Shown here in pieces: positions 382 through 57,436 of a stretch of DNA of 64,000 nucleotides. Under the pieces are notes generated by a model, which made no database searches, had not been told where the DNA came from, and was given only the letters and a program-made list of their open reading frames with translations. Where the stretch lies: positions 5,332,001 to 5,396,000 of the forward strand of contig OZ020486.1 in the NCBI GenBank assembly GCA_963971405.1, written 5' to 3'. Both the position numbers and the translations under genes were made by a program. The stretch is from Psococerastis gibbosa (Eukaryota > Arthropoda > Insecta > Psocodea > Psocidae). Each line of letters starts with the position of its first letter. The stretch's first letter is position 1.

Positions 382-16558
<16,177 letters not shown>

Positions 16559-23000: not shown

Positions 23001-26000
23001 AAAAGGAAGTCAAGTATGTAGGATATCGAATGCACTTAGTCATGATGACTGTACAGGAAATTGTAATGCAGTGGGGCTGATTATAAATGATGGTGATGAC
23101 GCTGGTTATGTTGTAATTTCAGTTGTCTTGGGGACTAAATAACGGTGTTGGAGACCTATCAGAGACCCCATCGTCTCGAAGATCTTCTTCTCGAGGAGTT
23201 AGACCAAGATTCGCTTGGATGTCTGCAGACCCGCAGGGCTCCGGCCCAAACTCTCTCCCTGTGAGTATATCCATCATTATATTATATAGTAATTACTATG
23301 ATCCACAGTAGCCTAAATGTAATTTATAAGTCATCGGGGTTGTCATTAACGATAGCTCGTGAAAACAGTGTTTTTTATCGGTACATGACCAATCTTAATA
23401 CATTGAGTATCCAATATACGGCTAAGTGTACATAATTGAAGTCTGTAAGACTTGTCACACTTGATGGGAGTAGATAATTGTGTTCAGCGGTTATTGAGTT
23501 TCTGGTGAAAGCCGTAGTGTAGTGGATAACGATCTAGACTTTCGGAAAGGAAGGCGCGGGTCCCTTTCCGCCACTGTCCCCTCTGTCTATTTAGAAACAA
23601 TTATTTATGTGTGAGGCTGAAACCATGTGGAGGTCCCCTCGTTCATATCATGGCAAGTTCGTTCAAAGGCTTCACGCTATGTAAGTTCTTTAGTTTAACC
23701 CATGCCCAAGCAAGAAATTTTACGAACGATGGAGACGGCTATGTAAGAATTGAGAGTGCCTTGATACCCTGAGGAGGGTACTAACTCATGATGTTCTCCA
23801 AGGACATGTAGAGTAGTGGTACGGACTCTGACTTTCACCCGAAAGGTTGTTGGTTCGAGTCCTACGCTTCCTACATTTTTTGGCCATGCTTCGGAGGGCA
23901 TGTAAAGCAGGCGGTCTTTCTTAGTTGAGTGTAAGAGAGGGCTTTATAGCCCTAACTCCGCTAGGTTGGCTTAGTAATAGAACAAAAAAGTCCTTATTTA
24001 TTTATTTATTTATTTATTTAAGTTCCACGAAGTCACCAAGGAAACTCTCGCAATGGTACTAACATGGCAGATAAAAGTAGAAAAGTCAACGGGCTACGCA
24101 GCTGCTAGGTTTGCAAACAAACACGGCTTTAATTAATTGTAATTTGTTCATTACTCACGTGAGTAAAACAAAGAGATGGCCTATCACCATTATTATTCAA
24201 CCTGGTCATGGAAAAGGCGGTAAGACGCGCTATACAAACACCGGGCGGGATCGACATGGGAGTAAGGATTAAATTTCTCGGGTATGCTGACGACCTGAAC
24301 GTCATGGCAGAGACAAAAGAAGAAGCCGAGACCACAGTGAAAACCCTTGAAGAAGAAGCTCTGAAGCTAGGTCTACAAATAAGCATTGAAAAAACCAAGT
24401 ACCTATTAGTGGGAAGAGAACAAGATACCTGCACAGGCCGCTTTGAAAGAGTGCAAGATTTGAAATACCTAGGGTCCATCATCACGTCCGACAACAAGAT
24501 CAGTCAAGACGTTCATAACAGAATTAAATCAGCCAATGTAGCTTTCTTCCAAACGAGAGCACTATTCTCGACTCGGATTCTATCATGGACAACAAAGGTC
24601 AGGCTTTACAAGACGCTAATCCTGCCTGTCCTTATGTATGGTGGTGAAGCATGGGCCCTGACAAAGAAAGAATCAAGAGCACTGGCTGTTTTCGAGAACA
24701 TGATGTTACGGAGAATATTTGTAAGAGTTTTTGAAAACAACAGTTGGAGAATCCGAACGAACGAACGAAGAAATCCACCAACTCTTTGGCTCGCCAGACG
24801 TCACGCAAATACTACGAAGCAGAAGGCTCCAGTGGATGGGACACGTCGTCCGTATGCCAGCAGAAAGAACAGCACAAGCAGTATGGATGGCATATCCCAA
24901 CAGAAGAAGATCTTTGGGCAGTCCGAGACCACGCTATGGTGACCAGCTAAAGGAAGATGTGCAGGAAGTTGGCCTTCGGGCCGATGAGTGGCGTGGCCTG
25001 GCAAAGGATAGGATCCGTTGTGAATGCGGCCAAAAGTCCCCCAGGGCTGACAGCGCCAACTTAAGTCAAGTCATTACTTACTTTTATGTTTTAGGGTGGA
25101 AGTGGGAGTGGAAGGACTGTTAACCCACCGAACCGGAACCAGGTGGTAAACAAACTGACGCAAATCCGGGACTACATTCAACAGACTGAGACCATCATGT
25201 CCGCCCTATCGGCCACAGACTCGGTGAGTAAATCACAGGACCTTGCGAAAGGTTATACTGGAGACTAACTCCAAATGTAAACAATTATTTCGACAGTAGA
25301 TTCGGATAGTAAAGCCTTACATAATAAAAAAGATGTTTTTGGTCCCGCGCCGAAGCGGCATGATGTGCCATTAATGGTTCAGAACACCACCTCGGCTATA
25401 AAAGAACTGTTTGAGATTGAAGAGGTAAAGTTGGTCCGAAAATCCCTGACTTGCTCACACGTGGGCAGAAACTTCCTGACTCCTGGGTTTTTTCTCACTC
25501 AGTAAAGAATCTCGGTTACTTGAGAACTTTTAGCTTATTGTGTCTCTTATAACTGAGTATGTGCACGAATGGCATAAACCTAGTTGCCAAAGCAACGCTC
25601 CTTTGTTCATACACAACGTAACGGTCGAAAAACATACTTTTTTGTATGTTGTAACCTAGAGTGAATGTTGGATGTAGGGATTCCGAGAAAAAGCTGACGG
25701 GACTAGCTTACTAGCTACCAGCTGCCTTTCTATTTAGTAAGATGGTCAGCCTGGGGGCGAAAACACGGCTAATTGTTTTGTGGCGTAGCCCTGTGGTCAA
25801 GACCAACACGACAAACTAGAGGGAATGTTAGCAGACTTACGGAGTACTCAGAAGAAGCCGGAGTCACTGGCGGAAACCGCTGCTCATTTTTTTTATTTTG
25901 TGGTGTAGCCCGGTTGTCAAGAGCAACACGACAAACTAGAGGGAATGTTAGCAGACCTGAGGGACTCCGAGACGAAGCTGAAGGGGCTGCTCGAAGGCAT

Positions 26001-29000
26001 GGACCGGGTCGATGCCAAAATTGACCGACTTCTTGATCAACATGCACAGGTCTTGAAAATATTGCGTGTGTGTTGGCAATAAGTTAATTTCTTATGTAGA
26101 GCATTGGAAGTCGGTACGATGAAACGTTCATTGGAGATACACTGTAGTATTATAATGTATATATAACACTGACATCAAATTAACTTTGGTTGAAGAGGTA
26201 ACCTCCTCGTTATAAACGAAATTAGAGGATATGGAAAAAACTGGGCTTGGCGGGATTCGAACCCACGATCTGCGCCTAACCGGGGCGTCGTCTTAACCGC
26301 AGGACCACAAGCCCCGACAAGTCCAGTAATCGCCAAATCCTCTACTTATGCTCTAATTGACATGATTCGTGTTGCTAGCCCCGGTTAGGCGTAGATCGTG
26401 GGTTCGAATCCCACTAAGCCCAGTTTTTTCCATACCCTCTAATTTTGTTTATTGGAGAGTCTAACTGTCAATTAACTGTTACGGTAGCCAATCATTAGGA
26501 TAATCATGGTTATGGTGTATTTCACAGGGATAGAGTTTTATATAAGAGATGGGATGTTCACTCCAAAAATGTCTGGGGCAACCTGACACGGCTTTCCAAT
26601 GGTTGGTCATAGAAGACGTGGCAGGTGGCACCTGAAATTCAAAAATATATTTTTAGCGGGAAACGAATGTCCCATCTCTCCTATGTATAGAACTCTGGAC
26701 TGCATAGTTTAATTAGGCGGCTATTCTACCGACGTCGTTTTTCAATGTGAATATGCATGACATGGTAGCAGACATCATTAATAAGTATCTACCATATTAT
26801 AACTTAATTTATAATAGAGAACCGGTCCGAGTTCACTCGAACATGCTTTCCAATTTATCAAAATTATTAGATAGAGAAAATTAGTAATTTTATGGCAAAT
26901 ATTTTTCCTATGGTTAAATTTCCGATATCTCGGGGGGGGGGGGGGGGGGGCGGCGGTTGTCCACCTGACGTCACTGGAAGTGAGGTAAATTCTCGACAGG
27001 TCAAACAAACACATTAATTACCACACAGCAATAATGGCAGGGCATGCAATGCATTTGAGCGCGAATTTTCTATCATTTTTTTTCAAAAAATAATTTTTTG
27101 GGCAAAACCAAATATTTTTTTGGGAAAGCAACCTATCCGGTTTCGTTACTCAATTTAACACCTAAAACATGCTTGAAGGTAGAAATCATCGATAGAAAGG
27201 TTTCGCATTTTATAGTCATTTTTTCATTAAAATTTAGTTATTTTTATTTTTTTACCCCCAGAAGCAAACTATCAAGGGGCAAGCGACCCCCCGCATTTTG
27301 TCAACATTAATAACGACTACAATCTACGAGAATTTAAAAGAAATCGTTGGAGCCGTTTTTGAGAAATAATTTTTTTAGACGTTTTTTGGAGTTTTTTGAA
27401 AATAAAACCCCCCCAAATTGAGTTAGCCCCCCCAAAAAAAATGGTCCCGAGGTATGATTTTTGTGAACCTACATGCCAAATTTCACTCAAATCCACTGAG
27501 TAGTTTGCCCGGAAATCGACAAACAGACAGACCGACAGACCGACCGACAGACAGACATTTTGTAAAAACCACTTTTTTGGGTTCCTGGGACCTCAAAACG
27601 TGTAAATCCGTTGAAATCTCGGAATCGAAAATTTCGACCATCACAAAGCTTTCCTTATACTACGTATAAATTGGAAAGCAATAAGTTAAGTATCTACATT
27701 ATAGTGTCCTAAAAATATGGCAGAGACTTATTAATGATGTCTGCTACCACGTCATGCACATTCACATTGAAAAACGACGTCGGTGGAATAGCCGCCTTAA
27801 TAACGACAGCTGCGTTTCCACACAGTCCTGTTCTGTGCGTCCTCAGTTGAGAGCCCCAAACTTCTCATGTCTCCGGTCATCTTTCTTCCCAGTGTAACTT
27901 TCCGCCTCCCTGTTCGTTCCTTATCTGCTACAGTCCAGGTTTCACATCTGTGTAATAAAACACTCCATACGCAGGTTTTAAGAAACTACTTCCTGATGTT
28001 GTATTATTATTGTTAACCTACAAGCTACCTTAACACTGTGCCGGCCGCAGCGTCCAATGGACTCTTTTTTGATTGTATCGGTTTGGCATTTCATGACTTT
28101 TCCCAACTATGTGCATATTTTAAAGCCATGAAAATAAAATTTTCAATGGTCTCAAATGGCACAATAGATAAAATCGAGAGGAGTGACTTGTACGATCTTT
28201 GGCAGCAGAAATTGAAAATAGTCGAAGAAACGTCTCCCGTGACAATTTCTTTATTAGTCAGCCAATAGTATATTACCGCACCTGATGGTTTCCAAAAACT
28301 TGAAAATGGATTGGGAAGGAAAAGTGGGAAAAGGCGTAAGTTCTAAATCGTGGATGGATACAGGGGGGGGGGGGTTACTGCCCCTTAGATTTAGTAAATC
28401 TATTGTAAGTTAATTTAAATTACGCTCTAATTTAATAGATATTACATAATATGTTTTCCTATTTTCACGCACAACTACCCCCTCCCCCCACCAAATGAGC
28501 TGATCCGTCCCTGTTCTTAATACAGCTGGGAAAAGAACCGCTGGAACAGGATGGGGCGACCAGGACTGGGTATATTTGTGAAAAGACAATGCGAAATCCC
28601 ATTAGAGTCCAATGGACACTGCGGCCGTTAACGTATGTCAGATGCTCTGGCCGGCACAGTGTTAAGTTGCATATTTTATATTTTATTGTTACAACTGTCA
28701 AGTAATTGTCAGCATATTTAATTCCAACTGAATAGGTGGCAACAACCTTTCTTGGCTGTGATCGGCTGGCTTAATTGACAAATAGCCTACTGGGCGCTTT
28801 TCTGTACCGACTTTGAATGGCCCTTTGTGCGAGTGCCACACTATATGATAGATAACATCTTCCGTAACCAAACTAACGCAACCTACTTTTTGTTTGAATT
28901 TGTAATTTTAGTCTACGTATGTATTTAACTATAATTTGTGCTCTTTGTCTGTGTTTCTTACTCATTAAGGCACTATATGTCCGCCATTTTGATCCCTATT

Positions 29001-32000
29001 TGCCGCCTCATGGCAAGTATTATATATAACTACTGTGAAAGCAGTAAAAATAGGAAAAGTTTAAGAGTGTACGATTATTATCGTTGATTTTAGTTAGTAT
29101 TCTGGAAGAGGAATAATTTTCTATAATTCGAAGGAAACCAGTCAGATGATAAATAATTGTGTCATACTTATTGTGTATACCTACGTCTACGTATGTTAAA
29201 TGTCAGCTTAATCGGCAGAATCATTTATATTTCGAATATTCCTTTAACATTTTCTTTGATATTATCATCCTAATTAACTTAATTTACTCTTTACAGATAA
29301 ATGGGTTAAATGGTGAAGGACCAACAGAGGATGATTTACTGCGGCGGGCAGATGACAGTAGGAGGAAAGTGGAAGCATTGGAACGACAAAGACAGGTAAA
29401 TTATATTGATACTGACTTAGACTTAATTCACTAAATTCTGTAGTAGCATTTAATATTCAGATGAGTGCAGCACAGGAATGTTTTCAAATGATAACCTTTG
29501 AGAACAGATCAGAGTACCCGCACTACGCATTTTTTGTACAAAGTCGATTTTTTTTTTAAAGCGCCAGGCCCATGTGGGTAAACGCGCTTTCTGGTTTTTA
29601 GTTTGCCGGTGTTGGTTGTCTGTATTGTATGTGCCCTGTGACCGTCTGTTTGCCGATGTTTGTATTAAAAAAGGTAGATTTTAGTCGAAAATTTAAAGAA
29701 TTAGCAAAAAACATTTTTCGTTGGTTTTCGTCTGTGACTTATTTTGCTTACTTATTTCTCCTTTTAAATTCGATTTAATTTCTAAAATATGACAGTTTTA
29801 TATGCTATATTGTCCAAAGAAAAAAGAAAAAGAAAAAACAAAAAGTAAGAAATATTCTTTTTTGTATCATTAAACTATATTTTTATGTTTGTAATTTATA
29901 GTTGGTAAATCTTTGCCCACGACTCCCTCCTAAGTTGCCATAGGGACGAGAAAGGGATCCCGTTGCCAAATCGGACACCATAATCACCAAATCACACACC
30001 ATAAGCATACACTCTAAGTAACTGCCCCAGATGTTCTTCTCTCTTGAGCGATACCTTCACTAGGTGTAATAGTAGATGCTAATCCAGGACATATTAACCA
30101 AACCAGATTCTTAAATAATTATTCAGGCTTATTTTATGGGCAATGTTCAGAGATTTATAGGTCAGTTCAGTCATTTATACCTATCGTAGTAGAAAAAACA
30201 ACTAAAAATAGCTTTAAATATATAAATAAGGACTTTTTATTGTTTCTATTACTAAGTCAACCTAGCGGAGTTTGGGCTATAAAGCCCTCTCTTACACTCA
30301 ACTAGGTAGGCCCGGGAATGCCTGCTTTACATGGCCAGAAAATGTAGTCAGTGTGGGACTCGAACCAACAACCCTTCGGGTCCGTACCACTACGCTACAT
30401 GTCTTGATTTATTAGATGATTACCACAAAAAGTCTCTAAATAATAATAAATCACCGTCGTCCATGCATCAGCAGCTCTCTGCTGCACCTCAAACAGGATT
30501 AAACCCAAAATTTGTTAATTTTTCGTCGGCAGGAATTGTTGGATCTGCAGCAGCGCGCGCACCGGCAATTAGCGGAAGCTGAGGCAGAAAAGTCGCGGGT
30601 CTTGTCGCGGGCTGCAGCGTTGAACGCTGAATCCGTCCCTGGCAGATCAATGGAGCCGAACTTGCAGAGTTTGGCTGATAGACTGAGAAACGTTGAGAGA
30701 CTGTGCGCTGACCAAAATGGGGTAAGTTTTGTTTTGGATGTTCCCGATGAAGTAGAAAATAAGGCGGGGATTCCACCAACGTCAATAGTGATATTAAATG
30801 TTTTTTGACGTGGTAGCAGACAGTTTTCGACTGTCTAAAAATGTCTGCTACCACATTAAAAAACATTTAATATCACTATTGACGTTGGTGGAATCCCCGC
30901 CTAAGAAACGAACTACTACACAGGAGGGAATGGCCCAGCTCTACTATACGGCACGGCGTCAAATGGCCTACCAGCCAAGGACGGGCGTTGGCTGAAGAAG
31001 AACAAAATGAAATAGAAAACAATGTGTATCCAAGCTATAGAAAGCAGAATCGGTTCATTTGAAATGTGGGTATACAGACGAATGATGCACACATCCTAGA
31101 GAGATCGTGTCCGTAATGCTGAGGTCCTGAGTTGAATGGATACGGAAACTGAGTTGCTGCTGACGGTTAAAAAACGGAAAATATCATACTTCGGCCATGT
31201 GATGATGAGTGAAAAGTATCGCCTTCTGCATGTAATAATCCAAGTGGAGATAGAAGGACAGAGGGCTCCTAGCAGAAGAACATACCGTCTTAAGTTATGC
31301 CAGTGGCCACTGTAAGGTGTAAACTTGGTTTCGAATTCCGTTGTCGTTCAACTGTTCATATCTTCCTTCCTGTAACTAAGTTTACCTTGCAAGCACCTGC
31401 CTGCAATTTCGAGTGTCCCTACTTTCTTTGTGTATATTTTCAAGCTAATACCAGCTGAACAGCCTGACGATGGCCAGGGTGAAGGGGAGCTGTCCGACAC
31501 AGAGACTGACTACCAGCTTGTGCGGGATAAAGTCGCGGAACTCAACGCGATGAAGGTAAGCTTAGTACAGTATTATTTCTTTTATTTAACTTCTTGTTGA
31601 AGCAACCTGGGGGAAAAACGTTATAGTTTTACATAATCCTAATTTCACAGAAAATATTGTCCATGTTTGGGATTTTAAAATTGTTCTCAGCTACCTACAG
31701 GTATTTTACACATATTATACGGGGTATAAAATACTGATATTAAATTAACTTTTGGTTGAAGAGGCAACCACCAATTTATATACGAAATTTTAGAGGATAA
31801 GTAAAAACTGGGCTTGGCGGGACTCAAACCCACGATCTACGCCTAACCGGGGCGTCGTCTTAAGCGCTCGACCTACAGGTACGATAAAAAACTTCTAGTA
31901 GACTGACGTTATAAAAGATGGCGGATATATTCAAACTTCGTAAATTCGAATATTCGGATCATTATCATAATATGAGTATGAGTATTTATTAATTAAAAAA

Positions 32001-35000
32001 CAATCATTTATTACCAATCACTTAATATCAGAAGAGCCACACTAAGTGCACCCTGTCATTGAATATATAACACTATTATACTATAGTGTTATATATTAAA
32101 ATGATCCTGTGAAGGGGACTTGCGTTGTGGCCCTTATTCCTGGCTAATTTAGTGTAAAAATTTACTTCGTATAGTCTTACAATAAAATTAAATTAAAAAC
32201 ACAACCGGTTTCGGCTCACGCCATCGTCAAGTGCGATTGAAAAAAGGTAAACAAAAGGTATGCAAGCTAAAACAAAATAAAATGAAACTCATTGTCAGGA
32301 TAATACACAGCATCGCATAAAGTAAATAATTAAAATTGAACAATTAAACACTAACCAATGGAAGCGCTAACAAGGGGGAACTACTTAAAAAGGTTATGTC
32401 ATTAAGTAATGGTAAACTAGGGTACAATATATTCAGAAAACCTACTCATACAGACAATATCATTCCAGAGGATTCGTTTCACCCACCACAACACAAACAT
32501 GCAGCCATACACTCCATTATACATAGACTCTTACATGTACCGTTGACGGTTGTACATTTTAACAAAGAACTTTCAACAATTATGGAAATTGCTAATAATA
32601 ATGGATATCCTGTGAGTCTAGTGAAAAATATTTTAAGGAAACACAGGAATAAGTTAACCCTATCTTTAGTCTATGGAGCAAGCCAGACTTCTGAACCAGA
32701 TAAAGGGTACGTTAAGTTACCATATCTTGGTAGGATTAGTTTGGAGTTGGCCTCTTGGATTGGAGATAGGGTCGTTAAGAATGTGTCATTTTATTCTGTG
32801 GACTCGTTGGGTAAGCAATTGATTAATTGTAAACCTAAATTGGAGAAAGGGAGGAAGTCAGGGGTTTATCAACTAGACTCTAATGATTGTGGTAGTTTAT
32901 ATATTGGACAAACTGGGAGAGGGTTTAAAGAAAGAATAGCGGAGCATAGACGGGGGGTAGGAAAACCCGACACTCAGTCCGCCTTAGCCCAACATATAAA
33001 CACCCACAACCATGCCTGTGATTTCGATAATTTTAAGATCTTACATGTAGCCAACAAGGGGAAACTTCTTGATAATTTAGAAACCATTGAGATTAGGGAA
33101 GCTATGGTTAAAAACAAAACGTTACTTAATGACATAACCTTTTTAAGTAGTTCCCCCTTGTTGGCGCTTCCATTGGTTAATGTTTAATTGTTCAATTTTA
33201 ATTATTTACTTTATGCGATGCTGTGTATTATCCTGACAATGAGTTTCATTTTATTTTGTTTTAGCTTGCATACCTTTTGTTTACCTTTTTTCAATCGCAC
33301 TTGACGATGGCGTGAGCCGAAACCGGTTGTGTTTTTAATTTAATTTTATTGTAAGACTAGACGAAGTAAATTTTAACAATGAGTGACAGCAAGTTTTACA
33401 AAGTTACTAAGGAGACTATTATGTTTTTTACTAATTTAGTGTATTTATTACTGGCAATCTTATTGCGGAATACACTGTATTTGTTTACAGGCCCAGCTAG
33501 CGCAGTTGCAGGCGATGATGGCGTCCGTGCAAGGGGACCAGGAAGCTTCTGAAGATGCTGGACGAAGATCCCAGTCCAGGGAGACGTCTGAACCGTGAGT
33601 TGTTATTTCGAAATGCTTGTTATTGTCAAAATATTCCGAAATCTATGGAAAAAGGTTAATGGCAACGGTGAAAACAAATTATTTAACAAAGGATTAGTTG
33701 GATTTACATTGACTGCTGAGAGGCATCGGTCTCAGAGTCCTCGAACAAGTAGGGCGGAGCCCATTGTCAGGGGAAGGAAATAAATTTGTTAAATTTTTAA
33801 TAAATATTCTTTAATAAAGTACTCCGATTCAAATTCACCTCGAATATGTTGTGGTTCGAGCCTACAGTGGCTAAATTTTTTACCATGTATTGGAACGTAC
33901 AGTATACTAATAAGTAAATGGCCTTTAACAACCCTAATTAAATGGTTATCATACAAGCTACTTCTTAATACAGATACGCTACGTTTAGCAATCTAAGATA
34001 ATGCTAGTTTCAACTTAAATACTACTATTTATGTTCAACGTTAAGTTATACCGTATTATAATTTAAGAGAGGAAATGTTCTGCAATGTAATAGTGGATAG
34101 CAAGTAACGTATCGTAATTGTAAAGGAATCGTTAGGACATGTATCTGTGATTATTGAATAAACGCTATTTATTAATTAATTATTTTATTTATAATGCTGT
34201 TGTCTTATCCTGAAATGTATGTAATATATTTTATAAATATGAGTTATAAATAGTTTGGCTTATGCCCTGTAGTTCAAAACTGCGACAGACGCATGGCATG
34301 ACATTTATGTGTCATGATTTGAAGGAGTCTGATGGAGAGTCAAAATACTTGTTATTTTCAATAATATTGGTAGATTTCTTTTGATGATGAATTAATTAAG
34401 TTTTATTTTTGCAGGGTCAGGTGGGTCTTTTTTTTAAATATTTCTCCGTGGTTACCACCTACAAGTATACATGCGCAATAGGTATTAAGAAAAACGCCTC
34501 GTTTGACTCGTGTTTAATCAGTAGTCAGCTCCAGTTGCCCGGGTGTGATACGCGAGCCTCTTCCATTCCTCCTGCCTCCCTTCTGAACTTCTGATTATTC
34601 AACACTTCCTCTGGTACTAGGTACTATTCCCAACCTCCTGAGATCAATCTAGTTTCTGTATCCGGTCCTTCTTCGTGCTCCTCTATTATTTTCTTCCTCC
34701 AACTGTTATCTATTCGAATCGTTGCGTTTACCAATAGATGATAAAATTAGCTTTATAGTTTTAACGGCAAAAATTTAGTGCGACCAACAATTGAAGTTCG
34801 CAATGGCGTTTTCGTAGGCCAAAATGGCTTTGCCTCTCTTTGTTTTGGCATATATTTTAACTATTGTATAATACTTTATATATACTGGGCGCGTAAGCCG
34901 TATCTGTACTTGGTTAAGTCATTTCACCTGTTTACCGGTAAGCTTGTCATAGCTATTGCCCATTATCGCTTGTACATCGACATCGAGGACCAATACCAGT

Positions 35001-38000: not shown

Positions 38001-41000
38001 GAAGTGGTAGCGCGTAATGTAACGTTTACTGTGCTATACCTCATCTAATGATAGGATCCTCTGCATGACCATCAGTGGGCTTTAGTGTCACGTTGTTTTT
38101 TCTATGCCCCCGCCGCCCAAAAAAAATAAAAACCGCGACTTTGTAGTTGTGTCATGCATGATGTTTTGGCTCGAGACCAAACAACAACAAAAAATTGAGT
38201 TTCACATGAAGTATCGATCGTAGAGCTATCAATTAGGTAACATCCTTCAGAAGAAATGTTCCTCTACATTGCGATGTAGAGTGTGTGTGTCCAGTATGGC
38301 TGTCACTAACTATATTGGAATTCGCTCCACCAGACAGTCGCAACATCCGTTTTTTTTTTTTTTTTTAAACAAATTAAACTCAATATATGAGACTTATCGT
38401 TGTTAGTGACGACATACTATATACCAAAATATAAAATGTCTTCATTTCTTCCAAAGTATGTGTCCCAATCGATATTTCTTGTAAAACTTGGATTTTTAAA
38501 ACTTCAAGGTCTGGTTTTCTCTAAATTACTGTGCTGATTTGTTTTAGGAACGTTGAGAATGACGAAGTCAGCACTCGATCCGGTGGTAGAGCAGCTGCTA
38601 ATGGCGCTGCAAGTGGTGGAGCATTCTTGGGAAGAATTCCTCCGTCGCGTACTAGACAGAGGAACGCGTGGAATCAGTCGTTGCCGACGTTGTTAAATCA
38701 AGAAACCCGTAAGTGCCAGAACCAGCATCGTAATAATTAGTGTAGCTGCTTAGGCGCCCATTCCACCGACCGGCTAGGGCTATTTACAAAAACAGTGACG
38801 TGGTAGCAGACATTCAAGACTTAGGCGGGGTTTCTACCGACCTCGCATTGCAGAATTGACGGAAATGTTTATTTTCCTCTATGCCATAGTTAAAAGTGAT
38901 CAATGATCATACAGTAAAATCACAAACAAACAAACTAAAATTAAAAAATGGCGTCATGGGATATGTTAAGTACAAACATTTTAATTGATTTCTATAAAAA
39001 GAAAAATTCTAATTTCCGTCAATGTCATTTGCATTCTGCAATGCGAGGTCGGTGGAAACGTCACCTAAGTCTTGAATGTCTGCTACCACGTCACCGTTTT
39101 TGTAAATAGCCCTAGCCGGTCGGTGGAATGGGCGCCTTAACAACTTAATAACAGCCCCACTTGCTCCTGCCAACCCCAAGTATAATTGTTTGCATGTTGT
39201 GACAGGCTCTTAGTAATCGTTGTTCGAATTTAGGGGCTGATCATAGGAAAATGGTGCTCATGTTCTCTTGGCACTGTTAAAGGACTTTTTCTGGCCGCAG
39301 GCTTACCTTGCCAGTTTTCGGACAGTATTGGTATTGTTTCCAAATGAATGTTTAGTCTTTGTCAAACTGATTCACGTCCTCGATGTCAAACCGAACTATA
39401 TGTGCCAGTGGGCAAGCTCGGGCATGCTTACCATTGGCATTGACGGAACCAAGGTTACATAGTCAGGACATGTAGAGTAGTGGTACAGACTCCGACTGGT
39501 CGTTGGTTCGAGTCCCACACTGGCGACATTTTCTGGTCATACTTCGGAGGGCATATACAGCATGTCCCGGGCTTTCCTAGTTGAGTGTAAGAGAGGGCTT
39601 TACAGCCCTAACTCCGCTAGGATGGCTTAGTAATAGAACAAAAAAGGCAATATTTATTTATTTATAAACACTGCACGAACAATCAAACAGTTGAGAGGTC
39701 CGAGACGACGTTGAATTCTACCAACCAAACAGCTTACCGCTCGCTGTTGATCTGAACATCTAATAGATGTAGCAAATAATGTATTATAACAACTCACATT
39801 AGTTAACTTCGTCTTCCATTTTCCCCATTTTGGGGCCGGGCCTATGCCCCCTACTCACCCCTTTTTTACGCCCCTAGTGAATTGCCTTTCTTTGACGTTT
39901 AGGTTCAGAAGATATTGCAACATTCATGCTGGACAAGCTATTTTTTTCAGCCCCTGATAGGCGAAGGAAAGAGTTGAGGTCGTCGCAGTCTTCCCTGAGG
40001 AACAGCGAGAACGGCCGCGCCCACCCTGAGACCATTGACTGGCACTCTGATCTCCCTGCCTCCAATGCAATGTACCAGGTTCGTACCTATAATAAATGTA
40101 TTATTATTATTTTGTTACATTATACTATCAAGTAATCAACAAGAAAGTATAAGGTAACAAGTACAAAATATCGCACAATTTTTTTAATCTGGCATACGAA
40201 TGTAACTTTGCCATGTGGAGAATGGTAGGCAAGTCCCAACTTGTCCATTGTCGCTTGTATACGGTGTGGGTTGACATCGAGGTCATTTGCCAGTTTCCCA
40301 AATTTCCAAAAATTGAAAAGGGTCGTTGGCATAAGGCAAAGTTTAATGTATCGCCAAGTCTACTGCTGTGTATAAACTGCCCTGTGCATAATCTGCCCTG
40401 TCATGTGGAAGTATTGGAATAAAAGAAGTACTTACTAGCCAACGCCCACCCTTGGCATTTCTGCCATCTGGCGCCGCGCTGACCAGTATAGATGTGCCGT
40501 ATGCCGGTAAGTCGATCGTTTCTTTCATCATCTAGCATCGGGCAGTCCATGAGGTGGCTGGCGACCATAGGGGTACTCCCGCACAGGACGCAGTCGGGGG
40601 ACCTCAATATTCCAATTCGGTGGAGGTGGGATGCCAAATGATCGTGCCCGCTTGTTGTTCTGAAGACTGCTACTGAAGTGGCCCGTTGTAGGTTCTTCTT
40701 TACGGGTTTGTTTAACAGTGTGCTCCATTGTTTTCCACTTGAAGCTAGTCGCAGTCTATCCTGGTTTGTCCTCCGTACTGATATGTCTATGAGGTTTCTC
40801 TCAGCCGTGAGGGGTGTTGCTTTGCTAGGCTAAGGTAGTTTTGTGCCCACCTTTGCCAAGAAGTCCGCCTTTTCATTTCCAAGAATGTCGACGTGACTCG
40901 GAATCCACTGCATCACCAACTCCCGACCTTGCTCTATGAGTTGGTTCAGTAGCTGCCTGCATAAAAGAAGTGTTTTGGGTATATTCAATCCCTGGTGGAA

Positions 41001-44000
41001 CTGCACAGTGCCCACCATAAAACGCCCTTCAAAACACTACAATACAATAACAATAAATGTTTATTTCCATTAAAAGTTAACTTACAATTATCATAATATG
41101 CTGCAGGGCTCACTCAGACCGTGTGTAGCTGAAATTTGAAAAAAAAAAATGCTTAATCTAACGTTCAATAAGTAAGTTGTTTAGTCTTCGTTTGTCGGTG
41201 TTAACTCGTAGAGATATGTTTTTAGATATTTTCGAAATACGTTTAATTGTTTAATAGTTATTACGTATGTTGGGGTCTGTTGTAGTGCGTTAGTCCTACG
41301 TACTTGGCCTGGATTTGTATATATGTCAGTCCCATGAGGGATACTTGTAGTGGCTGTTTCCATATATCTAGTGACACTTGGTTGCATCCGCCAGTTTTTC
41401 TTGCTGTATATTTTATTACCAGTTGGGCTTCGATCTATTTCGCCTTTTCCCCCAATTTTATACTTTTCTAAAGTGTTGTTTTAGACGTTTACCCGAACTT
41501 GTTTAAGTCACGCTCGTGCTTGTTACAATGTGCCAACGGTAAGCATGTCTCAGCTTGTTATCGCTTGTAGCCGGGGTCCATTGAGGACGTATACCAATTC
41601 ATACGAAAACAAAAAAAAAAATATGAAAAAACGACTTTATTGAAAATAAACAAAACACTATAAAGTCTTGTTTTCATGCTAACCCTAAAAGAAAAAAAGA
41701 ACATTTTATTATTGATGAATGGTTAAAATTAAATAGAGAAGGAAAAAAAAGAGAGAGAAAAAAGGATAAAATATATACGGGGGGGGGGGGGGGGAACAAT
41801 ACTAATAATGGCCAAAAAAATCCATGAAGTCCTTAGCAGGGCTAGTTTCAATGAGTCACTAGTTACTACAGGGAGACCTGCGTCCTTAATTAAAAGACCT
41901 TAAAAAACTTTTTTTTTTAATGTTGTTTATTATTTTCTTCAGACTCAAAGTCAACTAGAGGAGTCTGCCAATTTGTGCGAGCAGATGCTGCAAGACTCAA
42001 TGGGGCGCAGTGAGGGCAGTGCTGACGAAATGACTGGAATACTGTACTCGCAACAGCAAATGTTGACTAGAACAGTCTCGCAGTGTTGCAAACTCATCTG
42101 GCTGCAGCAGCGGCAAATAAATGAGCTGAGAAATGCTATGGTGGGTATTTATTTAACAGCCGGGTTCAGAGTTATGAATTGTTCTTGTTGTTTCTAACGC
42201 CTGCTTTCAGCATTTCTGCTTTAAGCAACCCTGTCAGCCTGGTGGAGGGAGTGAGTCTGTTTGCTAACTTGAGGCACCCTAAGGGCAGACTCTTTCACCT
42301 CGGGGAAAGGGGAGTTGACTGACAGGGTGAACCTCCTGATTATAGTGGATTCCGAACCACTTGGGGAACATGGTAAAGTCACACAATTAAATCGGAGGTG
42401 ACACTTACTTATACTGCCTAAGCGCGTTATCATGTCCCACCATGTTCCCCTGCCTTTTTAGGATTAAGTCAACAGTGGTAGTGGACCGGTATGGTGAAGT
42501 TAGTAGAGATCTTGACTGTGCACCGGAAAGTCGAGGATGTAAAAAGGGAAAATTTTCCGCTGGACCCTACTTTCACCGGGAGGGGACAAAAAAATAGAGC
42601 AGTGGTCCTGGCCAAGAGAGAAGATCTGTTCTAAACTGTTCCTAAAATTAAAACCTTTGCAGATTCTTCAGCAGTCAGCATCCCTGCAACCACAGCAGTC
42701 CCGTGATAATACAAGTCAGCAGCAGCAACAGCAGCAGCCGGCCAACGTCCCCGGTGATTTTCCAGTCAACAGCCCCACGCTGCAGACCCCGCGCTTCCTC
42801 CCGAACCCCGCCGAGCTCGCCGCCCAAGTTCCCTTCCTGGGCTACCCCGAGGAAGCCGCCTATCCCACCACCAACCAACCTAATGTCCCGTCCCGGTTCC
42901 GGCCCCGTCTGTTCAACCCCCGTAATCCCGAACTGTTTGTCAATGGTGGCGCCAACACCTTGGGGGGGCAGTTGCCCCCCGGGATGTTTGGCCCCGACGA
43001 TTTGGGCCCGTCCGGTGCCCTGAACAATCAAGTCCCGCCCGGTAACCGGGCCAACAATTATTGGGACAATTTCCGAAGGTAAATCTCCCCTATTTGCCCG
43101 AATAATTTATTTATTTTATCTGCTAGTCGTAAATTTTTATTTTCTTACTGCCTATTCCACCAATGAGGTCTTGGTTGAACTTGGTTTGCCAATATGGCAT
43201 AATAATAATAATATTATAAAACCGCTGCAATGGTCTTTGACCAATAAGCGTCTGTTTTAAGAACCAGACTTGATTCTCCCGCCACTTAACATGTCGTGGA
43301 TTTCGTTGGATATTTCAGCTGTGGTCATATCCACTATTCCTACTATTCGTATTTGATTGTTTGGACTAATTCACCCGTTTGTACATTGTTGCACTATTTT
43401 AATAATTGAGCAATTAATGACAACAACAACATGATAAAAGGCTACAAACTAAGCACGGTTGCAAGTATGGGAGCAGATTTCTCACAATGAACAACACCAG
43501 TCGATAAATGACACTATCAAAAAACCTATGCGGAACCATGCAGCGAAAAAATCCTAGTAAAGAATGATAATAATTAATAAAAACTGAATTTTCCAAAAAT
43601 AACTTGTTTTTCTACCATTTCCTAATGACTTATTGAACTTACCTCGCATTGTAAGCCATGTTGTCGCCCTCTGGTCACACCTGTCCTTTGATCAAGTAGT
43701 TATGTTAACCTCTGGGTTCCTATTTTTACCTTGTCCTAATCTGGGTAACACTGGTCCCCTTATGGCAACACATAATTTTACAATCACCCATCAGACCAGT
43801 CAGTGCTAGCGTGTTCTGACAGGTTTTGCCAATCTCTATGGTTGTTATGGCCAATGATCACAGCCATAAGTTGGACACCATTCAGATTTCTCATTCGATA
43901 TGTTGCTTCTCTTTATGTCAAGAGTATCATACAAGAAGCTCTGTATTTTTACAAGCTTTATCTAACTTTATCTCACTTTATCTTCAGGTTCATCTAGCTT

Positions 44001-47000
44001 AAGCTTTCGATGTGCTTCAATACCATGGCAATCAAGCATTAAGTCGTCTTTGGTGGGATCGGTTGTTATTATTTACATTTTAGTTTATTTTCTTCTGCTC
44101 TGTACTGTTATAATCTGCATTTCCTTTTTTAGTTTTCCTTACATCCTTTTCCCCTTTACATAAATTAGCACAAATACTTCTCTACGGGGCCGACGGTTGG
44201 GGTGTGGTAAGAATTATGTTTGAAGCGTGTGGTTTTTTATTATTTATATATTTTTTTCTGTAGGTTGTATTTGTGCTCATTTACTTACGATTAACATGTT
44301 TATTATAGTTATTGACTGCAGTGGTTTATCTTCTAATAACAATTTATTTTATTAATTAACGGATTTTCGCGTTTATTAAACCGTTGATAGGACCGGTTAT
44401 GTTCTTATTGCAAATGAATTTCTTGTGGAATTGAAGTTTGTAGGGCTTGTGTATCCATGGTAAGTGAGCCTCACATTATCCTGGTAGATTAAAATGGGGC
44501 GGGGTTTCCACATACATCAATGGTCAATGATAAATATGGGTAGCAGACATTTTTAATATGTCTTTAATGTCTACGAAAACGTCAATACCACATTTCCATT
44601 GACCATTGACGTATGTGGAAACCCCGCCTAAAGGATATGTGTTATTGTGCCAATGACCAACAGAGCATATCGGACTACCCCCACTACGCGTTTTTGGCAC
44701 AGTCGATTTTTACAGGAAATATCGGTCGTAGAGCCGTCAAAAATACCCATTAATTAAGAAATGCTCCTCTATATTTCGATATGGGCCATCTGGGCTTCGT
44801 TAACACCAATTCACAGTTCATTAAGTTTTTTCAACAAATCGTATTAAAAAATCTGCTAATCTGTGTTCGAAAGTAGTAGGCCTACATATCATGCATCAAA
44901 ATGCTCAGAATTTTTTTTCCATTTTGACCTGATATTTTTGGCAACTTTGATAATTCATGAGATCATATTTGATTTTTACACTTATAAGGCTTTCCCCCCT
45001 CTGTCTCTCTGTCTGATAATGCAGAAACAATGCCAATAGTGTCAAACAATTCAATTGCGTTATTGGCAAAGGGGAAGGTTCAATATTCCAGTAGGTCTAT
45101 GTCCATAAAAGCTTGCTGCAGGTTTTATTAACTTAAGCAGTTTAATACACGTATGCCTTCATTTTTCAGCTATTCCCGACAAAATCTGCTGTCCACATCG
45201 AAATCCAATGAAGACTCAGACCCAATGCGTCGTGCTGGGTCGTCCAGACCTTCCGGCAACCAAGAACGAACTCCCCTAAGTACGGCCATCGTCTTCCCCA
45301 ACAACCAATCCAATAATCCAGTGATTGAAGTGCAGCCGTTGCGTCAGGCCAATCCAGTGTCTCCGCGCCCTGGTGCTAGGTCAGCCATTTTTTTTTTCAT
45401 GAGATATCGTTTTCAATAATACTAGTAGTATGTGTATTACAAAACTATCGGCAGTAGCTTTCGCTGCATTGCTGCCAGTTACTACACACAACTAAATAGG
45501 TTTAAACACAATAGATAATTTTCCAGTAGTAACAAATACAGTAAAAAAAATATATATAAATGCGAGTTCGGTAGAAACCCCGCCTAAGTCATGAATGTCT
45601 GCTACCACGTCACTGTTTTTGTAAATAGCCCTAGCCGGTTGGTGGAATGGGCGCCTAAGCAGCTACACTAATTATTACGATGCTGGTTCTGGCACTTACG
45701 GGTTTCTTGATTTAACAACGTCGGCAACGACTGATTCCACGCGTTCCTCTGTCTAGTACGCGACGGAGGAATTCTTCCCAAGAATGCTCCACCACTTGCA
45801 GCGCCATTAGCAGCTGCTCTACCACCAAAAAATACAGAAAAAATAAAAGAGAAATGAATTATTTATTTTTCGTTTTTTAACTTCATCAACATCAACTGAC
45901 TCCAGCTATTCGAATAGTCTTAGGATCAGGGGCGCCCGCTGAAAATTTTCCAGTGGGGGACCACAAAAATGTGTGGTGGAAACAGAGGCATGTATTAATT
46001 ATGCAAAGAATTTCTATGCGCAGAAACGAACTGCCCGATGTTTCCACCACGTCAAACTATGCACTCGCACAGCCTCATTTTATCTATTTTACTTTAAGTT
46101 GTTTGTGGCTCATACTTTACCCTCTCGTTGCAGCTCCTCTAACCACGGAACAGTCTCCCGATCCCGTTCAGCAGAGCCGCAGGCGTTACATAACTTGATG
46201 GGGCCCAAAAACAACAGTGAAGGTGTGACAGCGCGACGTGAGGAACCCGATGAGAGCGTGACTCGGGTCAGGAACAATGTGGGTACTGGTGTCAGGAACA
46301 GATCGCCTAGGGAGCAACAGCCCGATGTGGGCCCCAGTGCGGAGAGGCCGAATAATAAGCGGGCTCGTCCTGGTAATTTGAATAACCGCAGTGATATTAA
46401 CAAGTAAGTGTTTGACTGTTTTGCTTAGGGTTTTATATAGGAGATATTCACTTCCCGCCAAAAAATTTTATTTTTAATTTCTGGGGCAGCCCGACACGGC
46501 TCCTAATTTACTAGGTATTGAAAAGATTTAGCAGGTGGCCCCAAGATTCAATAAATATGTATAGTTGGTGGGCTCGAATGTCCTGTCTCTTCCAAATACT
46601 TACATATGTTTACTAAGCGAGCATAGATAGACATGAGGAGCATGTGTGCAAAAGATGATTTGTCAATTGAAACTGAAAATACTAGGAGAGACAAAAAACT
46701 TCTAAAATCTAAATGCTTCTCCATTAGGCGCATATTCCACCTACGTCAATAGTCAATAGTTAATGTGGTATTGACGTGTGAGCAGACATTTTTAGACTGT
46801 CTTTAATGTCTGCTAAAACATCAATACCATATTTACTATTGACTATTGACGTAGGTGGAAAAAGCGTCTTATGGGAGTTGCCTGAGATACTCCTCTAAAT
46901 TAACCGGCATCGTAGCAGCATGCGTGTACTCGTGCGAGGCCCTACACACTAAGCGTTCGGAGACGTGTCGTAGTCGTAACTCAACACAAGTACTATTAAG

Positions 47001-50000
47001 TTAATAAGTGAGGTGACAGAAGAGGTTAATTCATTTACTTGTTTGTATGCGATTGATATCTTAATACAAAAATAAAAAATAAAATAAAATCGTTTATAAG
47101 TGACATTGGTCGCAGGATATTTAAAATTATTATAACGTACGAAACTTTAAATCTTGTATTGATTTAATTCCAGTGGTCTGTTCACCCTGCTTCGCGACAG
47201 CGTATTCCAAGAAGTCACTAACTTTATCCGCGCCAACGAGACCAGACCTAACTTCCTCATCCAGCTTTTCCGCGATCTCCAACAAGTTACGTCCGACCCA
47301 CAACGACAACGCGCCCTCGTCTCCCTCCAAGAAGTCGTCGGTGGCAACAACAACTCCCTGGAAGTCCGTAACAATATCCGCGTCAACGAGAACCGATCCA
47401 ACCTCAATCGTAGCGCCAACGCCGATGAACGAATCGAGCAAATTTTTGATCAGCTGCGTGAAAATCAAAATACAATCCGGCAAAACATTAGTAGTACGCC
47501 GATGGAGGTCAACGGGGGTAGCAACTTGGAGAATCCGAATATCTCGAACATCCGCGATTTGGCGAGTTACCCGAAAAATAATCTAGATCAGGATAGGATT
47601 CGGGATATGTTGTCGCTGCTTGAAGGGAACAATGCGGCACCTACAGCGAAAAATCGGAATGTTAGCAATGCGAGGGAGAATCTGGCGGATGGTACTCTGT
47701 CTGAGTATGAAAGGATGAACCCGAAGAATGTTTATTTGAGTCTTTATGATAGATTAGTTGAGGATTTGTTGAGACGGCATTCGGAGGAAGATTTTTTCGA
47801 GGGAGACGACGCGACTCCGGCGAATTTCGGGGAGAGTTTGTATATGGAGAGAGAGATGTTTGAGGGGAGGGATGAAGAAGGGGCTGTGTTTCGGACGGCG
47901 CAGCGGGGCCGCGAGTTTTTGATGAACCGTGAGACTTCTGAAGAGACTGGTGGTGCTAGGCGAAGAGGGTTTCATTTTGCTGATGCTAATGCAGGTGAGT
48001 GTGTTATTGCTTGATATTGTGAAACTTCTACTGTAATAACTTAGACTCACAGAGAGTGAGCCACTGGCATGTCATCCCAGAAGAGTGACCTTACTTGGCA
48101 GGGAATTGATATTATTATTTATTTCTTGACACACTTTACGCCCAAGAACTTAAACTCTTTTACATTTGCAGAAAGTGTAAAGTTAAGTGTAAATGTTTTT
48201 TCTTATACCGGGCTCTCAAAAATATCAGAAATATTATAATAATAATAATTCGTGTATTTTCTTACGTCAGTGCACCCTCATGCCAGCGGCGTGCGAGGGT
48301 AGCACTTAATGCCTAACTAACACTTAAAATTACTTCCTACCAACTACGAACTATGAACTTATTTGTACTAGCCTAATTATACCTAAAAATGATTTAAAAT
48401 ATGCATGTAAAATATAAAACTGTTTGGCAAAGTTTCGCTTGTGTGGTCACACACCCATTTTTTTTTTTAATAATATTACTTTCTTTATTACAGTTAGCCG
48501 TGAAGAATCAAAAGGTCTCGTTTCTCGCCTATGGGAACCAAATCCTGCCGATACCAATTACCCAGCATTTGTCCGACCAGAACCGTACCCCCACCACGCG
48601 TTCCTCGACATCTTCCCGTGTAACAACGCCGATCTTGCCGAAGCGGACCAATCACGGAACGGCGAAACTTCGGGCGCGGAATCTGAAAACGAGTACATGA
48701 ACCCGCCCCCCACTGCAGAGCCTGAAATTGAACATTCGTTTCTGGGGACCTTCCATCAAAACGACACACGCCCGGAAGGTGATTACTTTTCTTTTTTCTT
48801 AATTAGGGTACGTTTAGGCGCCGGAGAGTCACGAATAAATTTATCATTACAGCAAATGGTCGGTTGCTTGGTTTTGAGTGCATTATACTTATGGTGAGTG
48901 CCACCTCTTACACGAGGAAATTACCGCGGAATGTTTGAGTAACTGCCCTTGAAATGCCCATCCAGCCCGCCTGAAAAAACCCAATCAGAGTGCCACTTTC
49001 TTTAACTGCGACAGTATGTAGCGTATTGTATACACTTGATCCTTATTGTTCTATTGTGCCCCCTACAGAGTATTTCTACTACACTTATTATTATTATTTT
49101 TCCTCAGAGGGAATTAGTCCCTTTTCTTCTTTATTTGGTTGCACTTTTCTTAGTTCTTATTCTTATTTTCTATAGTTATATATAGTTCTTATTTTTGTTT
49201 CGCTACGGTTCGGGTATTCCTACCATGGTGGAGCAACTCAAAAACTGCCTGACACAATTACAAAATCCCATCAGACCAGCAAGTGTTGCAAGTCTTACAG
49301 GTTACTGGCAATATCCACCATATATACGTTTATTGGGACCATCAAACATTGGTGTGTATTGGGTGTGCACAGTGCAGTGTTCAGATTGGTTGGGCTGCAA
49401 GTTGCTGCAAGTCCAAATTATGAATGAATGCAACGTGTATTGAATATTTTAAAAAAAAAATAATTAATACGCAATAATTGTAAGGCCACAATAGTAGACC
49501 GATAACTAAATTATTGATAAGAAGCACTGTAGCTACGCATATTCTTGCAGTTATTTCTGGCGTGCGCTGTAACTTGATTATCTTGGGTCATTAGGTGATT
49601 ACACAAACAATCAGCAAGTAGTAGCGGAAAGCGAGACAACTGCGGATATGGAAAGAAATGAGAATTTTGCGGGGGCAGAAGGGGCGTGGTCCAAGGAGCC
49701 GGTGAAAATGGGGCTAAAGACCCGGGAGAAGACGGAAGTGAAGGCTGCGTCACCCAAAGTGGTCGATGCCAAGTTCAGGGAAGTGCTGCAGCATGATGGC
49801 ACCACTGTTGGTGTTGGTGTGGAAGAGGCGGCGGAGGGCAATAGGCCAATGATGGACATTGCTGGCGCTTTGGAGCATTTAAATTTCCGGCAGGTGAGTT
49901 ATAAGAAAGATATATATACAGTATATATTAGACACCCCCCCCCCCCTGCGCGTTTTTTATAATTTTATAATATTGTAAATACAAGGCAAGGGTAGGTCCA

Positions 50001-56840: not shown

Positions 56841-56990
56841 TGAAAAGTGCAGTTGCCTCTAAATCCTCTACTTTTATTTATACTTTAAAATTATACTTAA
56901 CTTATACTACTCTAATATTATATTGAATAAAGCATTGCCTTAATGCAATAAAGTAAGTTCACAGACCTGTTCGATTATAGATAGTTGTGC

Positions 56991-57377
56991 TAAGGTGCCC
57001 ATTCCATTGACCGGCTAGGGCTATTTCCAAAACGGTGACGTGGTAGCAGACACTCAAGACTTAGGTGGCGTTTCCACCGACCTCGCATTGCAGAATTGAC
57101 GGAAATGTTTATTTTCCTCTATGCCATAGTTAAAATTGATCAATGATCATACAATAAAATCACAAACAAACAAACTAAAATTAAAAAATGGCTGCATGGG
57201 ATATGTTAATTACAAACATCTTAATAGATTTCTATAAAAATAAAAATTCTAATTTCCGTCAATGTCACTTGCAATCTGCAAGGCGAGGTCGGTGGAGACG
57301 CTACCTAAGTCTTGAGTGTCTGCTACCACGTCACCGTTTTGGAAATAGCCCTAGCCGGTCAATGGAATGGGCGCCTA
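56991..57377. mobile_element. Nested MITE pair, composite copy 2
   Basis: Same composite as 38751-39139: outer TAAGGTGCCCATTCCATTGA, inner element at 57062-57307 with CTCGCATTGCAGAATTGACG and GATCAATGATCATAC. Flanked by TA. Confidence 0.88.
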
Positions 57378-57436
57378 ACCTGTCAATGAGAGACAAGAGC
57401 ATAATATAAGTATAGGATTTCGAGTGCAAAGCACTT

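Follow-up and report, generated by a model that had tools for sequence, protein, structure and literature searches.

The window analyzed here, a stretch of 64,000 nucleotides of Psococerastis gibbosa DNA, contains a run of seven exons of the centrosome gene PCM1 on the + strand (38548-38708, 39951-40078, 41943-42140, 42663-43078, 45170-45379, 46134-46403 and 47174-47994), which join in one frame without a stop and have AG and GT borders each. The last of these exons (47174-47994) opens the PCM1_C domain (Pfam PF15717, E 4.3e-13) and has a single match genome-wide. Our gene model covers these seven exons, the 5' exons lying outside it; the exon numbers 13 to 18 are those of the original prediction. 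Exon 13 (38548-38708, + strand, 161 nt), with its AG acceptor and its donor GTAAGT at 38709, is followed by an intron in which we see one MITE, at 38753-39136 on the + strand, with a length of 384 bp, arms of ~105 bp and TTA at both 38750-38752 and 39137-39139. Farther downstream, exon 17 (45170-45379) and the exon after it (46134-46403), both on the + strand and both supported by in-frame splicing and by a protein match, border the intron 45380-46133 (intron 17), which carries an inverted copy of a piece of exon 13 and the sequence that follows it.

Window self-BLAST aligns 38582-38849 (+) with 45826-45559 (-) over 268 bp at 98.9% identity, with 3 mismatches and no gaps, and the E value of 2e-135 rules out a chance repeat. 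The two arms of this inverted pair are 6,709 bp apart on the same contig. In the source segment, an exonic part of 127 nt is followed by the donor site, by intron sequence (44 nt, in which the 3-bp target duplication is counted) and by a MITE part of 97 bp; in the copy, the corresponding antisense pieces lie on the - strand at 45700-45826 (exon), 45656-45699 (donor and intron) and 45559-45655 (outer left arm of the MITE). The exonic and intronic pieces are each 100% identical to the source, and source and copy do not differ over the first 186 bp of the tract, counted from 38582. The mismatches, given in gene sense from source to copy, are 38768 G>A (at a CpG), 38817 A>T and 38841 C>A; all 3 fall inside the 97-bp MITE part (chance P 0.046), which we regard as a small oddity. 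The overall divergence is 1.1% (3/268; 95% interval 0.2-3.3%). The original prediction had named the gene as PCM1 and described a recent inverted copy of exon 13 in intron 17, and in this it holds up: the PCM1_C match bears out the identity of the gene, the 266 bp that it gave as 38582-38847 and 45561-45826 recur as described, with self-BLAST extending them by 2 bp to a start at 45559, and the lengths agree with the 127 bp of exon, the donor, the intron and the MITE part that it listed. At the level of sequence comparison, the inverted copy is confirmed as real and recent, with a known source.

We searched the genome assembly (409 Mb in 68 contigs, the window's contig having 50.3 Mb) with several queries. 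With the 268-bp segment, 40 of 583 candidates were scored, and only source and copy span the whole query; the other 38 scored matches start at query position 150 at the earliest, the MITE itself starting at 172. Searched with the 734-residue protein that the seven exons encode, the genome gives 8 matches, all in the window: the seven exons (+) and the inverted copy (-). Since these account for all protein matches, this assembly contains a single PCM1 locus, without a second haplotype. The copy-bearing intron, for which 752 bases served as query, is found whole at one place (49 matches; 40 of 1229 candidates scored), and apart from this place the query matches the source as well as MITE arms, which start at the border of the copy or 2 bases inside it. 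The rest of this intron has no further copies among the scored matches of a search that skips simple repeats, and copies of the exon elsewhere were found neither among the scored genome matches (40 candidates, simple repeats skipped) nor in the protein search. We considered and rejected a mobile element carrying the exon, as outside the MITE neither the exon nor the target intron has any other copy among the scored matches; with no further copies of the target intron among them, nothing points to delivery by a mobile element.

These searches also bear on the idea that the copy is an artefact of assembly or library preparation. An assembly that holds no second haplotype of the locus leaves some room for this idea, but we consider it most improbable: the copy lies in a 50.3-Mb contig and has three private substitutions, both of its junctions are sharp, with surroundings that recur nowhere else among the scored matches, and the intron around it is whole at one place. 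From the sequence, an assembly error is unlikely. For a base rate, we scanned 63 MITE-centered loci (197,418 bases) at distances below ~3 kb, from which 7 loci in the region of the window and repeated entries for one place had been removed and in which transposon pairs would count as well; a single pair was near-identical and contained 60 or more non-MITE bases. This is an inverted pair of 146 bp, 95% identical and without a MITE match, at 2622-2767 and 2888-3033 of locus L066.

Relatives of the MITE are abundant, with 913 candidates for an arm query and 267 for an interior query, of which 40 each were scored; two more family members lie in the window, near 56988-57379 and 8352-8749. Counting full-length elements only and dropping repeats of one place, we find that the 3-bp flanks are equal for 27 of the 34 arm-chosen elements (source included; 7 unequal), 21 of the 27 being TTA or TAA, and for 14 of the 29 interior-chosen elements (15 unequal), where all 14 are TTA or TAA. 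When both samples are pooled, TTA or TAA makes up 35 of 41 equal flanks, and the source element itself has a 3-bp TWA target duplication (TTA/TTA). Since the 3-bp target duplications are mostly TTA or TAA, they fit with PIF/Harbinger-type elements, and from its own target duplication we take the source MITE to be of this type (Tourist-like). Long terminal inverted repeats and many close copies are further features that it has in common with PIF/Harbinger-type MITEs. A 22-mer of the MITE has no match in viral contigs, among which records of the insect's own genome may be excluded.

The window holds several other repetitive elements. Inverted repeats of 257 bp at 32153-32409 and 33122-33378, 98.4% identical, enclose an open frame whose match to GIY-YIG is weak (E 2.5e-4; 21.7 bits, a little short of the Pfam cut-off of 22.6), and we presume that 32153-33378 is a young Penelope-like element. 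A frame with RT_RNaseH_2 and RT_RNaseH matches (6108-7163) is preceded by a frame without a Pfam match (5170-6060); 5170-7166 consists of LTR-retroelement pieces, presumably Gypsy-like. The reverse transcriptase frame at 24163-24936 (Pfam RVT_1, E 3.5e-14) probably belongs to a non-LTR element. The segments 26148-26309 and 31713-31877, which are 84% similar and overlap Rfam tRNA matches (26242-26314 and 31809-31882, respectively), are probably tRNA-derived SINEs. A further inverted pair found by self-BLAST, 12153-12377 and 12633-12848 (92% identical), is probably another MITE or foldback element.

The MITE part of the copy carries a mark of its origin. The source arm has a T at 38835 where most relatives have C, and the copy has the T as well. 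Among oriented near-full elements, this T occurs in 0 of 31 interior-chosen ones (30 C, 1 gap) and in 1 of 34 arm-chosen ones; among arm segments, it occurs in 3 of 77. Because the copy shares this rare base with the source, this locus most likely supplied all of it, exon, intron and MITE, in a single copying event. The derivation of the copy's MITE part from the MITE of this very intron is thus well supported and the most likely reading of the sequences, and the segment was most likely copied as one piece. As for the order of events, the MITE entered the source intron first, and the copying came later.

It has also to be considered that a MITE arm already present in the later intron primed ectopic repair off the MITE beside the exon, which then extended into the exon. 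Such a course of events would suit the confinement of all three mismatches to the MITE part (3/3, P 0.046), and each of the copy's private bases is seen in some relatives, namely in 16 of 75, 10 of 78 and 6 of 77 arm segments, a set in which 30 of 38 loci had been chosen as best matches to the copy itself. However, no two of the three private bases occur together in any of 79 arm segments, and the later intron has no other MITE part beyond the copied tract. The private bases are also rare in the interior-chosen sample (2, 0 and 1 of 53 with both palindrome orientations mixed; 1, 0 and 0 of 31 in the correct orientation, the arm-chosen sample having 13, 8 and 3 of 34). Moreover, a landing pad of this kind requires a MITE part of other origin, which is contradicted by the shared T at 38835, a strong argument if not an absolute one, as 3 of the 77 arm segments have the T too. 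We have therefore rejected a pre-existing landing pad as highly improbable. Since the private bases are rare in the interior-chosen sample, the copy's three differences are best read as later mutations, one of them a CpG transition. When the genome is searched for a 33-base pattern that includes the bases of the copy at 38817 and 38841, the copy is the 1 exact match, and 1 more place matches with one mismatch.

We next turn to the borders of the copy. The left flank (45529-45558) and the right flank (45827-45856), read on the + strand, share the 8-mer AAATACAG and A-runs, a possible imperfect target duplication. Alignment of these 30-base flanks gives a score of 14.5, which is reached by 81 of 5000 dinucleotide shuffles and 104 of 5000 plain shuffles, by 7 of 1030 A+T-rich pairs at the same distance and by 29 of 1768 adjacent A+T-rich pairs; we take the likeness as a hint of a short target duplication and no more. 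Junction microhomology, judged by eye, amounts to 2 bases on the left (AA, compared with the A-run after the copy on the assumption that the flanks were once adjacent) and 0 on the right. The 3 bases bordering the copy are unequal, ATA on one side and AAA on the other. An A-run follows the copy on the + strand; a tail on the antisense 3' side would be a few A's long at most.

The main rival explanation, which draws on these borders, is an insertion by way of RNA: LINE-type machinery would have picked up part of an unspliced PCM1 transcript, or of an antisense one, and reverse-transcribed it into an A-rich site, with target duplications as the result. The common AAATACAG and A-runs of the flanks are in its favor, the A-run after the copy on the + strand would suit a very short tail, and a reverse transcriptase frame is present elsewhere in the window. 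A tail at that place, however, requires an antisense transcript, sense RNA having none; an indel separates the flank repeats despite the youth of the insertion; and the likeness of the flanks is matched by the shuffles (81/5000) and control pairs (7/1030) mentioned above. We consider such an RNA-mediated insertion rather unlikely. A further alternative is an aberrant transposition of the MITE that took flanking sequence along by transduction via a misread end, which we hold to be very unlikely. The tract does contain one whole MITE end and ends 7 bp before the inner end of the arm, but its other border has no MITE-like end, the bordering triplets (ATA and AAA) are unequal, and no dispersed copies of the exon are found among the scored matches.

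We propose that the copy is a locally templated inverted insertion, made during break repair or by replication template switching, and this is the origin that we consider probable. A break or a stalled fork would have arisen where the later PCM1 intron is rich in A; the repair polymerase would have jumped to the opposite strand 6.7 kb off, into the exon and its MITE-bearing intron, copied one continuous 268-bp tract and gone back near its departure point, at a time after the arrival of the MITE in the source intron. The copy has what is expected of a templated insertion: the template is nearby, the insertion is inverted and contiguous, 268 bp long without gaps and sharp at its ends, and the source is kept, with two full-length places among the 40 scored and one protein-level copy. 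After the insertion, the intact source exon would be spliced normally and the copy would leave with its own intron; in the resulting pre-mRNA, an inverted repeat would span the greater part of the exon together with its 5' splice site. We infer that the insertion was made by a repair route, and our best guess is that it is neutral, with at most a weak effect on RNA.

The inverted repeat has possible consequences for RNA. Source and copy are computed to form a duplex of -557 kcal/mol over 268 bp; the exonic 127 bp alone give -270 kcal/mol, the 141 bp within the two introns give -280 kcal/mol, and the perfect duplex of exon and intron up to the MITE, 171 bp long, gives -356.6 kcal/mol. The copy is long enough for the pairing of exon 13 with the antisense piece over more than 120 bp that the original prediction envisaged, 127 bp being identical. 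For the MITE of the source intron, a hairpin of -233.5 kcal/mol is computed. Since the MITE is complete within 400 nt and the copy follows 6.7 kb further on, the hairpin should form first and take the MITE part: it would pre-empt the MITE arm, 97 of the 268 bp, through the partner arm in the same intron, and the exon and 44 nt of intron would be left for pairing with the copy. This pairing would mask the 5' splice site of intron 13 only if the site were still unspliced after 6.7 kb more of transcription; later, exon 13 could still pair with intron 17 until the removal of that intron. Effects through a masked donor, circRNA, editing or siRNA are physically possible according to these computed structures. 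If the later intron lingered, exon 13 might be sequestered in a duplex of at most 171 bp and the output of PCM1 lowered or diversified in carriers of the insertion (by skipping, editing, a circle of exons 14-17 or siRNAs), a scenario that we find doubtful.

A stronger claim would be that the antisense piece is a selected device that, by pairing with exon and donor, regulates splicing, circularization, editing or small RNAs directed at PCM1. The perfect 171-bp duplex of exon and intron (-356.6 kcal/mol) would speak for such a role, and two precedents are described: in GluA2, an intronic sequence complementary to an exon serves the editing of that exon (PMC7045468), and complementary introns on either side can promote circular RNA (PMC4647462). 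On the other hand, the MITE hairpin is a competitor, the distance of 6.7 kb favors earlier splicing of the exon by general kinetics, and in rice just 72 of 2354 circRNAs have MITEs on both flanks, as stated in PMC4647462. We give a selected device very little chance of being the right explanation.

The locus offers a recent, well-sourced antisense exon within its own gene, probably acquired via break repair or template switching, and with it a possible one-step route to an intron-exon RNA structure. Should the duplex be active, a comparison of individuals with and without the insertion would amount to a natural experiment on exon sequestration; at present, the locus is a genome-repair curiosity rather than a mechanism. 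Among the papers listed by a literature search, none has a title or opening of the abstract that tells of an exon copied in inverted orientation into an intron of the same gene, which does not imply absence from print; the nearest case among them was an exon inversion caused by LINE-1 (PMC7005217).

Among known systems, the editing complement of GluA2 resembles the present case in that an intron sequence is complementary to an exon of the same pre-mRNA. Unlike the one described in PMC7045468, the complement here is a recent, near-perfect copy 6.7 kb away with four exons in between. Repeats that support back-splicing, such as Alu pairs and the MITEs examined in rice (PMC4647462), are likewise complementary segments in introns, and those of PCM1 flank exons 14-17; here, however, the complementarity extends over an exon and its donor, and a strong rival hairpin is present. 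Closer in origin are templated inverted insertions made by template switching (MMBIR) or alternative end joining, with which the copy shares its inversion, near template, sharp ends, contiguity and intact source. Template switching is established as a source of inverted insertions with nearby templates, and alternative end joining as one of small templated insertions (PMC8421209 and PMC7407515, respectively). In PMC8421209, templates were sought within 100 bp and flanking microhomology is part of the signature, whereas our copy is longer (268 bp), lies farther from its template (6.7 kb) and has slight microhomology. In contrast to known templated inverted insertions, it also includes part of an exon, a splice donor and part of a transposon. 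Human templated sequence insertion polymorphisms, one class of which has target duplications, are similar in that a distant segment is copied in and the source is not lost, but in PCM1 the segment comes from the same gene, is inverted and has no clear tail or clean duplication. Compared with these systems, the copy in PCM1 is a known kind of mutation in an unusual placement.
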